Assembly: GCA_026394015.1 (NCBI GenBank)
Contig: JAPKZA010000275.1
Coordinates: 1 to 64,000, forward strand
Origin: Acidobacteriota bacterium
GTDB taxonomy: Bacteria; Acidobacteriota; Terriglobia; Bryobacterales; Bryobacteraceae
Reading direction: 5' to 3'
DNA: 64,000 nt
Within the stretch, counting starts at the first letter, position 1; each line of letters begins with the position of its first letter. The notes under the pieces are model-generated. The model ran no database searches. It was not told the DNA's origin and saw only the letters and a program-made list of their open reading frames with translations. Positions 18,404 through 22,915 of the stretch are shown here, piece by piece. The translations under genes and the position numbers were made by a program.

Positions 18404-19921
18404 TTATCCCGGGCGAGCTGCGCCGTGAAGACGGAAGAGCAAGCGAAGTTCCTGGCGCCATTCTAACCCGACGCCCATGCGCTCCACTGCCACTACAGAT
18501 GAAAAATAGCTCAGGATGGTTTCGGTAGTCGGATGGAATTCGAGCGCGGGGGCAACGAGGAGCAGGCGGGGGCGGTCTGCCGAGATGGCGTGGCCAGGGA
18601 AATAGCCGTGGGTGGTGAACTCGTTGCGTTCGGCGTGCCAGGCGACGCGCATCCAATAGTCGAGGGCTTGGAGGGGGAGGTGGATATCCTCGGTGGCCTT
18701 GATTTCCAGGACGACGAGGCGTCCCGAGCGTTCGATCGCGAGCAGGTCGGCGATACCGCGGTCGAGGCCGGCGAGGGCGGGAACCTGGCCGTAGATGGGT
18801 TCAGGGCAGAGGCGGGCGTCGAGGGTGGTGATGGATTCGCGAACGCGCATTTCGAGCCAGGCTTCCGGCCCGCGTTGGTGCAGGATGCTGCCGTGTTCGC
18901 TGCGGAGGTTGACGAGTTCGGCGACGAGGGAGCGCAATTCGGGGAGGTTATTGGGATGGAGGACGCGCTTATCATCGATGCCGCCGCGGAGTTCGCCGTT
19001 GCGCCAGCGGGCGAATTCGAGGCCGAAGACGCGGAAACTGGCGGTGCCGCCGGCGAGGGAAACGCGTTCGACGTGGGGCCAGGCGGCGAGTTGGGCAACC
19101 CAGTCCGGCAGGGCGAGGATGGAGTGTTGGCAGCGCTCGAGGCTGGTTTGGAGGTTGCCGCAATCGGCGGGGTCGAGCGGAATCGCGTGGCCGTCGGGCG
19201 AGTAGGCGAAGAGGGTGAAGAGCGCTTTGGCGGGGTCGAGCCAGCGGAGACGCAGGGCGATGGCTTGCGTCTCGTGGGCGGGCAGGAAGAGGGCGAGGCC
19301 TTCGACGGTGACCTTGGGCTGGCGACGGCTACGGACGTAGTCCAGCCAGATGAGCCCGAAGGAGAGGGCGTGGGGGGCTTCGGGGGGCGCAAGGATGGCG
19401 GCCCAGGCGCGTTTGCCCTGGCGGATGACGGCGCGGGGATAGTTGGCGGAGAGGGTGTGTTGGAGGTCGCGTTCGGTGGAGAGATCGTCGAGTTCCCAGC
19501 CGACGAACCAGCGGCGAAGCATCAAGCGGAACTGTTCACGGACGATCATGCGGTCGCCTTGGCGGTCCCATTGGAGGGCTTCGGGGCGGTCGGAGTCAAA
19601 GATCCAGGCTTCGGCTTGTCGGCCACCGAATTTCTCGATGACGAGAGTGAGGCGGCCGGTTTGATGGTGGGCGACGGCGAGGATGCGACGGTTCCAGTTG
19701 CGGACGTCGTCCCAGGCGGAGAGCATGAGGCGGCCGGCGCTGAGGCCGTATTGGTGGCGGTCGGGGAGGAGGGGGAAGGCTTCGTCGCCGGGTTCCTGGA
19801 CGACGGGTTGCTTGCACCGGTCGACGAAGGCTCGGATGGCTATTTCGAGGTGTTCACGGTCAACCGGGGCGACCGGGCGGCGGGGCTTGGGCATCGGAAC
19901 ATACGTTGGGTTAGGCCGCAC
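18404..19921 (-). CDS. hypothetical protein with PD-(D/E)XK-like C-terminal nuclease pattern
   Basis: GIADLLAIERSGRLVVLEIKATEDIHLPLQALDYWMRV resembles D...ExK core; directly abuts the next gene. Confidence 0.65.
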   Translation of the reverse strand: MRPNPTYVPMPKPRRPVAPVDREHLEIAIRAFVDRCKQPVVQEPGDEAFPLLPDRHQYGLSAGRLMLSAWDDVRNWNRRILAVAHHQTGRLTLVIEKFGGRQAEAWIFDSDRPEALQWDRQGDRMIVREQFRLMLRRWFVGWELDDLSTERDLQHTLSANYPRAVIRQGKRAWAAILAPPEAPHALSFGLIWLDYVRSRRQPKVTVEGLALFLPAHETQAIALRLRWLDPAKALFTLFAYSPDGHAIPLDPADCGNLQTSLERCQHSILALPDWVAQLAAWPHVERVSLAGGTASFRVFGLEFARWRNGELRGGIDDKRVLHPNNLPELRSLVAELVNLRSEHGSILHQRGPEAWLEMRVRESITTLDARLCPEPIYGQVPALAGLDRGIADLLAIERSGRLVVLEIKATEDIHLPLQALDYWMRVAWHAERNEFTTHGYFPGHAISADRPRLLLVAPALEFHPTTETILSYFSSVVAVERMGVGLEWRQELRLLFRLHGAARPG

Positions 19922-20014
19922 AAAATCTCAGATAATGCTGGGTTGTAGCGGCCTTCGAGGCCAGGATGCCGGTTGGGGTGTTGGTTGAGGGACCGCGGTG
20001 GACTGAGGCGGGGG

Positions 20015-20080
20015 CTAGCGGGCGGTCTGGTTGTGGTTTAGGCTGACTCCGCCGACTTTGATCTTGCTCTTGATGTTCAT
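20015..20080 (-). CDS. 21-aa small peptide MNIKSKIKVGGVSLNHNQTAR
   Basis: ATG preceded by AGAGG with 8-nt spacing; C-terminus matches the second decayed copy at 21973-22059. Confidence 0.6.
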   Translation of the reverse strand: MNIKSKIKVGGVSLNHNQTAR

Positions 20081-20229
20081 TCTATTGTCCTCTTCGGTTT
20101 ATTGAGCCGCTCAGCTGCTCTCAATTTGGACGAGCGCAGAAGAGTTCAAGAAATGCTCATTCGTCGAAAAGAAATTGCAGATGTTTTTCTGGCGGCCCGT
20201 CCCAGTGAAGTCGCGTAAACTTTCAAGTA

Positions 20230-20898
20230 ATGCAGGATAGTTTGCGGGAACGATGGGACGCGGTGCGGGAGCGGATCAGCGCGGCATGCGCAAAGGCGGG
20301 TCGGGCGGAAAGCGAGGTGTTGTTGCTCGCGGTGACCAAGGTCTTTCCGTCAACCGTGATCGAAGAGGCGTATGCCCTGGGGATGCGCGAATTCGGCGAG
20401 AATTACGTGCAGGAGTTCGAACGAAAGCGGCCGTTGCTGCCGGAGCTGCCGGGGGCGCGGTTTCACTTGATTGGGCATCTGCAATCGAACAAGGCGAAGA
20501 AGGCCGGGGAGCTGTTCGATGTCGTGCAGACCATCGACGGGCCGAAGTTGGCGCGGCGGCTGGACGAGTTGGGGAAGCCGATGGAAGTGATGGTGGAAGT
20601 GAAGTTGTCGGAGGAAGAGGCCAAGCACGGGTGCGACCCGGCGGAGCTTGCGGCGGTGGTGGAGGCGATCCGAGGGTGCGCGAACCTGACGCTAACGGGG
20701 TTGATGACGATACCGCCCTGGGATGAGGACGCCGAGAAGTCGCGGCCGTATTTTGCGCGACTGCGGGAGTTAGCGGCGACGCATGGATTAACGGGGTTGT
20801 CGATGGGGATGTCGAATGATTTAGAGGTGGCGATTCAGGAAGGGTCGACCATTGTGCGAGTGGGAACGGCGCTGTTTGGTCGTCGGCAGAAGGCATGA
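20230..20898 (+). CDS. YggS-family pyridoxal phosphate-dependent protein
   Basis: LLAVTKVFPSTVIEEAYALGMREFGENYVQEF; FHLIGHLQSNKAKK; LSMGMSNDLEVAIQEGSTIVRVGTALFG. Confidence 0.93.
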   Translation: MQDSLRERWDAVRERISAACAKAGRAESEVLLLAVTKVFPSTVIEEAYALGMREFGENYVQEFERKRPLLPELPGARFHLIGHLQSNKAKKAGELFDVVQTIDGPKLARRLDELGKPMEVMVEVKLSEEEAKHGCDPAELAAVVEAIRGCANLTLTGLMTIPPWDEDAEKSRPYFARLRELAATHGLTGLSMGMSNDLEVAIQEGSTIVRVGTALFGRRQKA

Positions 20899-21920
20899 CG
20901 GTTGGGTTCTTCTCGCCCCTGCCGCCGGCGAAGTCCGGGGTGGCGGACTACGCGGCGGATCTGTTGCCGCTGCTGCCGGCGCGGGTGAACCAGTCGGGCG
21001 ACGTGAACCTCTATCACATCGGGAACAATCAACTGCACCGGGAGATTTACAGCCGGGCGTTGCGGGAACCGGGCGTGGTGGTGCTCCATGATGCGGTGCT
21101 GCACCATTTTTTCCTGGGGTCGATGGGAGAGGGGGAGTATGTGGACGAGTTTGTCTACAACTACGGTGAGTGGGCGCGGGAGTTGGGGCGGGAGCTTTGG
21201 CGGGGGCGGTCGGGGTCGGCGACGGATCCGCGGTATTTTCGCTACGGGATGTTGCGGCGGTTGGTGGAGCGGTCGCGAGCGGTGATTGTGCATAACGCGG
21301 AGGCGGCGCGGCGGGTGGGGGAGAAGGCGCGGGTGATTCCGCATTACTTCAAGGCGCCGGTGTTGCCGGAGGGTTGGGAGGTGGAGCGTTGGCGGGCGGA
21401 GCGGGGGTTGCGGCCTTCGACGACGTTGTTTGCGGTGATGGGGTATTTGCGGGAGTCGAAGCGGGTGATGGCGGTGGTTCGGACGTTTCGGAAGTTGCGG
21501 GCGGAGCGGGGGGACGTGGCGCTGTTGTTGGCGGGGGAGATCGGGTCGACGGATTTGGCGAGGGCGCTGGATTGGGAGGGGGTGCTGCGGGTGGGGCACA
21601 TGACGGAGCGGGAGTTTTGGCTGGTAGGGAGTGCGGTGGATGTGGTCGTGAATTTGCGGTATCCAGCGAGCGGGGAGACGTCGGGGATTGGGTTACGGAT
21701 GATGGGGATTGGGAAGCCGGTGTTGACGAGCGACGGGGAGGGGTTGGAGGTGCCGGCGGGGGTGGGGGAGGAGGAGAGGTTGGCGGAGACGATGCGGGAG
21801 TGCGCGGATCGTCCGGGGCGGGTGCGCGAGTATGGGTTAGCGGTGCGGGAGCGGGTGCGGCGGGAGCATGATTTGGGGGTGGTGGCGGAAAGGTATATGG
21901 CGGTGTTGCGGGAGGCCTGA
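20895..21920 (+). CDS. glycosyltransferase (GT4-like)
   Basis: MTVGFFSPLPPAKSGVADYAADLLPLL; VVVNLRYPASGETSGIGLRMMGIGKPVLTSDG. Confidence 0.85.
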   Translation: MTVGFFSPLPPAKSGVADYAADLLPLLPARVNQSGDVNLYHIGNNQLHREIYSRALREPGVVVLHDAVLHHFFLGSMGEGEYVDEFVYNYGEWARELGRELWRGRSGSATDPRYFRYGMLRRLVERSRAVIVHNAEAARRVGEKARVIPHYFKAPVLPEGWEVERWRAERGLRPSTTLFAVMGYLRESKRVMAVVRTFRKLRAERGDVALLLAGEIGSTDLARALDWEGVLRVGHMTEREFWLVGSAVDVVVNLRYPASGETSGIGLRMMGIGKPVLTSDGEGLEVPAGVGEEERLAETMRECADRPGRVREYGLAVRERVRREHDLGVVAERYMAVLREA

Positions 21921-21949
21921 GGCACCGTTTGGGGGGACGGTCTCAGGCC
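21914..21949. terminator. hairpin GGCCTGAG-gc-ACCGT / ACGGT-CTCAGGCC spanning the GT stop codon, between convergent units
   Basis: 13 paired bases with a 2-nt bulge; no T-run, so terminator function is tentative. Confidence 0.4.
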
Positions 21950-21972
21950 GGGAATGAGGGTGTGGGTTAGCG

Positions 21973-22059
21973 GGCTGTTTGCTTGTGGTTGTTCTTCGTG
22001 CCACCTGCTTTGACGGCGCTCTTGAGGGGGGAGGGCGGCCTGGTTGTGGTTAGCTTTCG
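21973..22059 (-). pseudogene. decayed copy of the K-x-GG-xxx-NHxQTAR small-peptide gene (two repeat units, frameshifted)
   Basis: Minus strand: SKANHNQAALPP in one frame, then KSAVKAGGTKNNHKQTAR* in another, with the frame change in a C-rich tract (CCCTCCCCCCTC). Confidence 0.5.
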
Positions 22060-22338
22060 AATGTTGTCGCCAACCCAACCGTTGTCGTCGAGGTCCTCTC
22101 TCCCACCACCGAAGCCCTTGACCGTGGAGTAAAATCCCGCGAATATCGCTTAAGCCCCTCCATCTGTCAGTACGCCCTGGTGTCCCAGGATCGGCCCCTC
22201 ATCGAGATCCACACCCGCGCCGCCGACGGCCACCGGCGGATCAGCGAAGTGGCCGGCCTCGACGCCGACTGCGTCTTCTCCTCCCTCGACTGCACCATCC
22301 CCATGGCCGCCCTATACGAAGGGGTTCTTGAGAAGTAG
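22054..22338 (+). pseudogene. Uma2-family C-terminal fragment, no N-terminus or start
   Basis: Translation from 22060: NVVANPTVVVEVLSPTTEALDRGVKSREYRLSPSICQYALVSQDRPLIEIHTRAADGHRRISEVAGLDADCVFSSLDCTIPMAALYEGVLEK*. Not in the ORF track. Confidence 0.75.
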
Positions 22339-22481: not shown

Positions 22482-22679
22482 ATGCCGAGGAAAATCCGGG
22501 AGTTGATAGCGGAATTGGAGAAGCACGGCTTTGTCGGTCGCGGCGGCAAGGGTAGCCATCGCAATTTCGCTCACCCGCGAGTCACTCGCCCAGTTACGAT
22601 CTCCGGGGATACCGGAGATGATGCCAAGCTATAGCAAGAAAAGGCCGTCAAGGCCGCTATCGAGGAGGCGACACGATGA
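22482..22679 (+). pseudogene. HicA toxin with premature TAG (22632-22634)
   Basis: MPRKIRELIAELEKHGFVGRGGKGSHRNFAHPRVTRPVTISGDTGDDAKL*QEKAVKAAIEEATR*; reading frame past the TAG continues to an ATGA overlap with hicB. Confidence 0.85.
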
Positions 22680-22915
22680 AAGAGAGCGCGCACTACGTAA
22701 AGATCGTCGAGTGGTCCGATGAGGACGGGTGCTTCGTCGGCCGTTGTCCTGGGTTGCTCTACGGTGGTTGCCATGGTCAGCATGAGGTGGCGGTGTTCGA
22801 GCAGTTATGTGCCGCGGTCGACGAAGTGATTGATCTCTATAACCGCGACGGCAAACCGCTGCCCCCTCCCACCAGTGGGCGGGATTACGCGAGCAAGATG
22901 CTCAACGTGGCGTAG
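22676..22915 (+). CDS. hicB: HicB-family antitoxin
   Basis: MKESAHYVKIVEWSDEDGCFVGRCPGLLYGGCHGQHEVAVFEQLCAAVDEVIDLY; coupled to hicA. Confidence 0.8.
   Translation: MKESAHYVKIVEWSDEDGCFVGRCPGLLYGGCHGQHEVAVFEQLCAAVDEVIDLYNRDGKPLPPPTSGRDYASKMLNVA

Follow-up and report, generated by a model that had tools for sequence, protein, structure and literature searches.

Short acidobacterial peptides with a common leader-like start, probably exported, encoded near C39-ABC exporters and kinase/sigma gene pairs

Comparison with described systems

In the AMS/PCAT (C39) systems for double-glycine peptides, such as ComA/CSP, LahT and PCAT1, the peptide gene lies upstream of a C39-ABC exporter, the leader ends in Gly and the catalytic C39 residues are present. 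The same is found at the acidobacterial loci described here, and the PDB relatives of their exporter include 'ABC-type bacteriocin transporter' entries, for example 4ry2. However, the acidobacterial leader is basic and only about 10 residues long, far shorter than the double-glycine leaders, it has KAG instead of a strict GG, and leader and core are tandemly repeated. The Leu-12/Glu-8/Leu-7 pattern reported for ComA (PMC6363468) is absent from the acidobacterial leader. Double-glycine leaders end in GG, GA or GS and have hydrophobic residues at -4, -7 and -12, and the leaders of the single-unit genes are too short to have a position -12.

The gene order of HlyD, peptidase-ABC and second ABC is shared with NHLP (NHLM) bacteriocin export (TIGR03794/03796/03797), but the acidobacterial peptides have no nitrile-hydratase or Nif11 leader. 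Their exporter proteins also score far below the curated NHLP cut-offs, at 164.9 bits against 853.3 for the peptidase-ABC (TIGR03796), 61 against 156.2 for HlyD (TIGR03794) and 121 against 709 for the second ABC.

Some of the loci recall the pairing of an ECF43 sigma factor with a transmembrane Hanks kinase, exemplified by PknS/EcfK. ECF43 members carry a QTTA/QATE 2.2 motif, and PknS, the partner kinase of EcfK, has periplasmic TPRs and directly phosphorylates the ECF43 sigma factor (PMC13147305). The acidobacterial kinases likewise have C-terminal TPRs, and the sigma factors, which we call ECF43-like, a Thr in a non-acidic 2.2 motif. Unlike PknS/EcfK, the acidobacterial loci have peptide genes between sigma factor and kinase, and we met no peptide partner of ECF43/kinase pairs in PMC13147305 or in the literature searched.

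Comparison of the precursors with Pfam and NCBIfam gave scattered matches and no coherent family, the strongest coming from repeat proteins that weakly match unrelated families. Literature searches for NHNQT, NHNQ, PQPDPP and VKAGG, which covered few subscription papers, returned nothing relevant. The peptides form an acidobacterial family that is without a description in Pfam, NCBIfam or the literature searched, although an earlier description is possible.

Peptide copies in the window and their surroundings

The window, by which we mean the whole 64,000-nucleotide stretch of DNA that was analysed, lies on contig C508 of a 7.9-Mb genome in 574 contigs. Its relevant features are as follows.

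19935..20234, no strand assigned: peptide-carrying segment of about 300 bp, missing from three aligned congeners, where only some 26 bp separate the two flanking genes
20015..20080, minus strand: intact single-unit precursor MNIKSKIKVGGVSLNHNQTAR, 21 aa, with ATG and stop
20088..20093, minus strand: Shine-Dalgarno-like sequence AGAGGA, 7 nt upstream of the ATG
20230..20898, plus strand: YggS-family PLP protein (TIGR00044, 193 bits, above the cut-off); context, not a partner
20895..21920, plus strand: group 1 glycosyltransferase-like gene, located between the intact and the decayed copy and also conserved in peptide-free genomes; context, not a partner
21967..22026, minus strand: unit 2 of the decayed copy, LKSAVKAGGTKNNHKQTAR followed by a stop, in an open frame without a start codon
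22028..22060, minus strand: remnant of unit 1 of the decayed copy, SKANHNQAALP, in the other frame; the frame switches in the C run at 22026-22031

A preliminary description of this DNA had recognised two related tiny peptides, one intact with a good ribosome-binding site and one decayed, and both sequences are as described there and have homologues. The intact peptide MNIKSKIKVGGVSLNHNQTAR splits into a leader-like MNIKSKIKVG and a core GVSLNHNQTAR. In the second copy (21967-22060, minus strand), PLKSAVKAGGTKNNHKQTAR with its stop is read in one frame and SKANHNQAALPP in another, and the change of frame falls within a run of six C, in agreement with the proposed two-unit tandem with a frameshift in a C-rich tract. 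The open frame of unit 2 contains no ATG, GTG or TTG, and in unit 1 the residues that should separate KA from NHNQ are gone. Because of the missing start codon, the shortened unit 1 and the frameshift, this copy is a pseudogene of a two-unit precursor.

The YggS gene and the gene for a 505-aa protein on the other side of the peptide are about 26 bp apart in three congeners (G015, G016 and G009), where the window has the 300-bp segment. A fourth genome, G011, has the segment too, with a peptide copy that lacks a start codon; a gain in the ancestor of the two genomes and a loss elsewhere both fit this pattern. The 505-aa protein (18404-19921, minus strand) has only a weak MmcB-like match (E 0.08) and is conserved beside YggS in the genus. 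The glycosyltransferase, whose co-occurrence the preliminary description had proposed to check, is ruled out as a partner by synteny, since it is conserved together with YggS in genomes without the peptide.

Neither exporter, kinase nor sigma gene was found in the window, where ABC matches at about 61.3-61.9 kb reflect generic ATPase domains, and all three are likewise absent near the other peptide loci examined in this genome. Both copies in the window are orphans, dispersed from the exporter, one intact and one a pseudogene. Further along the window, an ORF at 22482-22634 (plus strand) resembles a HicA toxin (Pfam 3.7e-9), and a 79-aa ORF without a Pfam match occupies the place of a HicB antitoxin (22676-22915, plus strand).

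The peptide family, its units and its cores

The shared C-terminus of the two copies had been taken to argue against chance ORFs, and homologues in related genomes had been proposed as the check; both points are borne out by the searches. A search of the same genome with the intact 21-residue peptide recovered the two window copies and a third, the two-unit MKTKTAVKAGAITANHSQGLVVKTRVKAGALSNNHNQG on contig C560, and further units, including multi-unit tandem proteins, occur in four congeners and one genome of another family. The units follow the consensus [VIL]K[TS]x[VIL]KAGGxxxNHN[QE] and are found across Acidobacteriota in proteins of one to about 16 units, the longest at locus L081. A profile built from 25 units (A1) detected them in 19 of the 257 genomes of the order and in 10 of 399 genomes sampled from the class. 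Per genome, profile E-values ranged from 7e-9 to 7e-7.

An exact scan of 85,462 GTDB species genomes for the strict DNA pattern K[TS]x[VIL]KAGx4NHN[QE] gave 28 stretches, all in genomes titled Acidobacteria or groups therein, so that within this exhaustive scan the family is restricted to Acidobacteriota. Viral contigs yielded no match to the same pattern, and a viral origin was rejected on this ground; the only match on a plasmid runs antisense to an annotated gene and was judged spurious.

Over the 98 distinct unit DNAs, mean entropy is 0.77 bits at the first codon position, 0.65 at the second and 1.33 at the third, and several synonymous codons are used for the conserved residues; in three near-identical single-unit genes from different genomes the differences are mostly synonymous. 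Since variation at third positions is about double that at the first two, the units are under selection at the protein level and appear to be translated, the substitution pattern being that expected of coding sequence, which the preliminary description had named as a further check.

The precursors begin with a ten-residue element, M-K-[VIL]-[KQ]-[TS]-x-[VIL]-K-A-G, that is followed by several unrelated cores. These include GVSLNHNQTAR in the window, NVIWGD, SAAWGT, FNPQPDPPGRR, KKANR, LAPTCGCGARGKGDHKPSYLGRHTR, mixtures such as GAIWVGDGRGNHNETIVG, and Cys-rich cores; another leader-bearing precursor of the same genome, MKIKTNVKAGKCRKAGGDQQ, lies on contig C131. A DNA pattern for the leader alone gave clustered matches in 17 of 257 genomes, far above the reversed-pattern control. 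Among 41 precursors, neither Gly10 nor the Thr/Ser at position 5 is ever missing and 37 have Ala9, figures that describe a hand-picked set rather than an independent test, as the motif was among the selection criteria. KAG is followed by G in 15 of these, by A in 8 and by another residue in 18, so that KAG(G) does not amount to a strict Gly-Gly site, which counts against the cleavage proposed below.

Neighbouring genes and possible functions

The genes that recur beside the peptides encode HlyD, a C39-peptidase-ABC protein, a second ABC protein, a TPR protein, an ECF sigma factor and a Ser/Thr kinase. The peptides lie directly upstream of HlyD or TPR-HlyD genes at L083, L097, L081, L088, L094, L160, L164, L151, L152 and other loci, and the same adjacency extends to other classes of the phylum, with two families beyond the order represented by L229 and L231. 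Of the 36 genomes of the order that have the exporter, 15 are among the 19 with peptides and 21 among the remaining 238 (Fisher p 2e-11 and an odds ratio of 39, in a test that ignores shared ancestry), and part of the 21 exporter-only genomes have leader-bearing peptides with other cores (L150-L152, L155). In the genome of the window the exporter genes are found on contig C514, whose start truncates the HlyD gene. The C39 peptidase forms the N-terminal part of the ABC protein (Pfam Peptidase_C39, 1.1e-17), and Q11, C17, H97 and D113 are invariant in an alignment of six proteins, indicating that its catalytic residues are intact as far as sequence can tell. At the single-unit genes of L106 and L124, a terminator-like hairpin and T run immediately follow the peptide stop, ahead of the HlyD gene.

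At other loci an ECF sigma gene adjoins a Hanks-type kinase gene. Within 3 kb of 46 peptide loci there is a sigma gene in 19 cases, a kinase gene in 20 and either in 22, whereas about 3% of loci would be expected to have such a sigma gene by chance, given the 47 genes of the ECF43-like family in the 11.9 Mb of genome G520. At seven loci of that genome (L079, L080, L087, L203, L205, L209 and L210) the peptide genes are interleaved with those for sigma factors and kinases, in the order sigma-peptide-kinase-peptide-kinase-peptide at L079 and similarly at L080, L087, L203, L209 and L210. In the kinases, an N-terminal kinase domain is followed by a hydrophobic stretch, predicted to be a transmembrane helix, and by TPR matches in the C-terminal part, and the neighbouring sigma factors have a Q[PAT]TA 2.2 motif (QPTA in 18, QATA in 2, QTTA in 1).

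We consider it likely that the intact peptide of the window is a single-unit precursor belonging to a family of ribosomally made, exported and leader-cleaved short peptides under kinase/sigma control. The family peptides are probably exported signals or effectors, because they share a ten-residue start and adjoin a peptide-cutting exporter and kinase/sigma genes. The exporter would bind the MKxKTxVKAG element, and its C39 domain would cut at or beside KAG(G), releasing the core, which in the window would be approximately VSLNHNQTAR, about ten residues, while tandem precursors would give a series of units of about 20 residues. The kinase/sigma pair may control the peptide genes or sense the peptides, and the intact orphan might be served by the exporter of contig C514. 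Counting against this reading are the looseness of the KAG(G) site, the short leader that lacks the ComA pattern and the absence of exporter, kinase and sigma genes near the peptide loci examined in the genome of the window. A signalling peptide, as proposed in the preliminary description, or a secreted one is possible, whereas a leader peptide for transcription attenuation is unsupported, being incompatible with free-standing genes and tandem repeats of up to 16 units. If this reading is true, it defines a secreted-peptide family in Acidobacteriota, which are abundant soil bacteria, with precursors (many of only 15-27 residues) short enough for gene callers to miss. The pairing of such peptides with exporter and kinase/sigma modules would also make the activator of TPR-bearing Hanks kinases and ECF43 sigma factors addressable.

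What the exported core does can be read in several ways. It may, as we tentatively suggest, be the ligand of the kinase TPR region, the kinase then phosphorylating the ECF43-like sigma factor and so switching on the peptide genes. The strict alternation of genes at L079 and its likeness at five other loci point to this, as do the putative transmembrane stretch between kinase domain and TPRs, the same architecture in the published PknS/EcfK pair (PMC13147305) and the sigma 2.2 motif; however, neither such a sigma gene nor such a kinase gene is present within 3 kb at 24 of the 46 loci, G520 encodes its exporter away from the kinase modules, and the kinase may merely regulate expression. That C39-trimmed KAG-NHNQ cores are sensed by the TPRs of transmembrane Ser/Thr kinases, leading to ECF43-type sigma activation and giving this sigma class a ligand, is a proposal that we regard as possible but doubtful. 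It is somewhat unlikely that the NHNQ, IWGD and PDPPG cores are instead toxic, in the manner of bacteriocins, or bind metal, with the kinase/sigma pair governing their production: C39 ABC exporters commonly carry bacteriocins, paralogous arrays with variable cores (10 peptide ORFs at L094 of G057) resemble diversification and the one His per unit is invariant (98/98), but no recurring immunity gene was found at the loci, and the NHN[QE] core is short, polar and scarcely diversified.

Leader conservation, together with core variability and a C39 exporter, is typical of modified natural products (strict RiPPs), and the conserved Thr/Ser and Asn/His could be modification sites. Yet no enzyme family recurs near the peptides or exporters, and the maturase that the preliminary description had suggested looking for is not a recurrent gene at the peptide loci; a RiPP with its maturase gene in another part of the genome is in our view improbable. 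The tandem units of about 20 residues, for which an AlphaFold2 model gives a regular but weak strand pattern, might also suggest a structural or amyloid-like repeat protein such as a curli-like surface fibre, but single-unit free-standing genes are common, the exporter's C39 peptidase looks active and the confidence of the model is very low (mean pLDDT 44), so that this reading is very improbable; as evidence for a folded repeat protein the model is uninformative. Chance ORFs or repetitive non-coding DNA could account for the very short ORFs and for the decay of copies in this lineage, but against the codon-position entropies, the conserved ATG and stop and the homologues in dozens of loci, such an origin is close to negligible.

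Several loci deserve mention for their peptide genes. In G057, the exporter operon is immediately preceded by a series of about ten NHNE peptide genes of one or two units each (L094, 9843-11637). The IWGD/AVWGT core class has precursors of about 16 residues (L198, L199, L151 and L152), those of L151 and L152 being directly upstream of an exporter operon. The FNPQPDPPG class is found at L200 and L155, with three neighbouring genes in G648. In G013, a Lysyl oxidase domain (Pfam 1.1e-26; L150, 8374-9135) is encoded just downstream of the Lys-rich 15-residue precursor MTIKTNVKAGKKANR.
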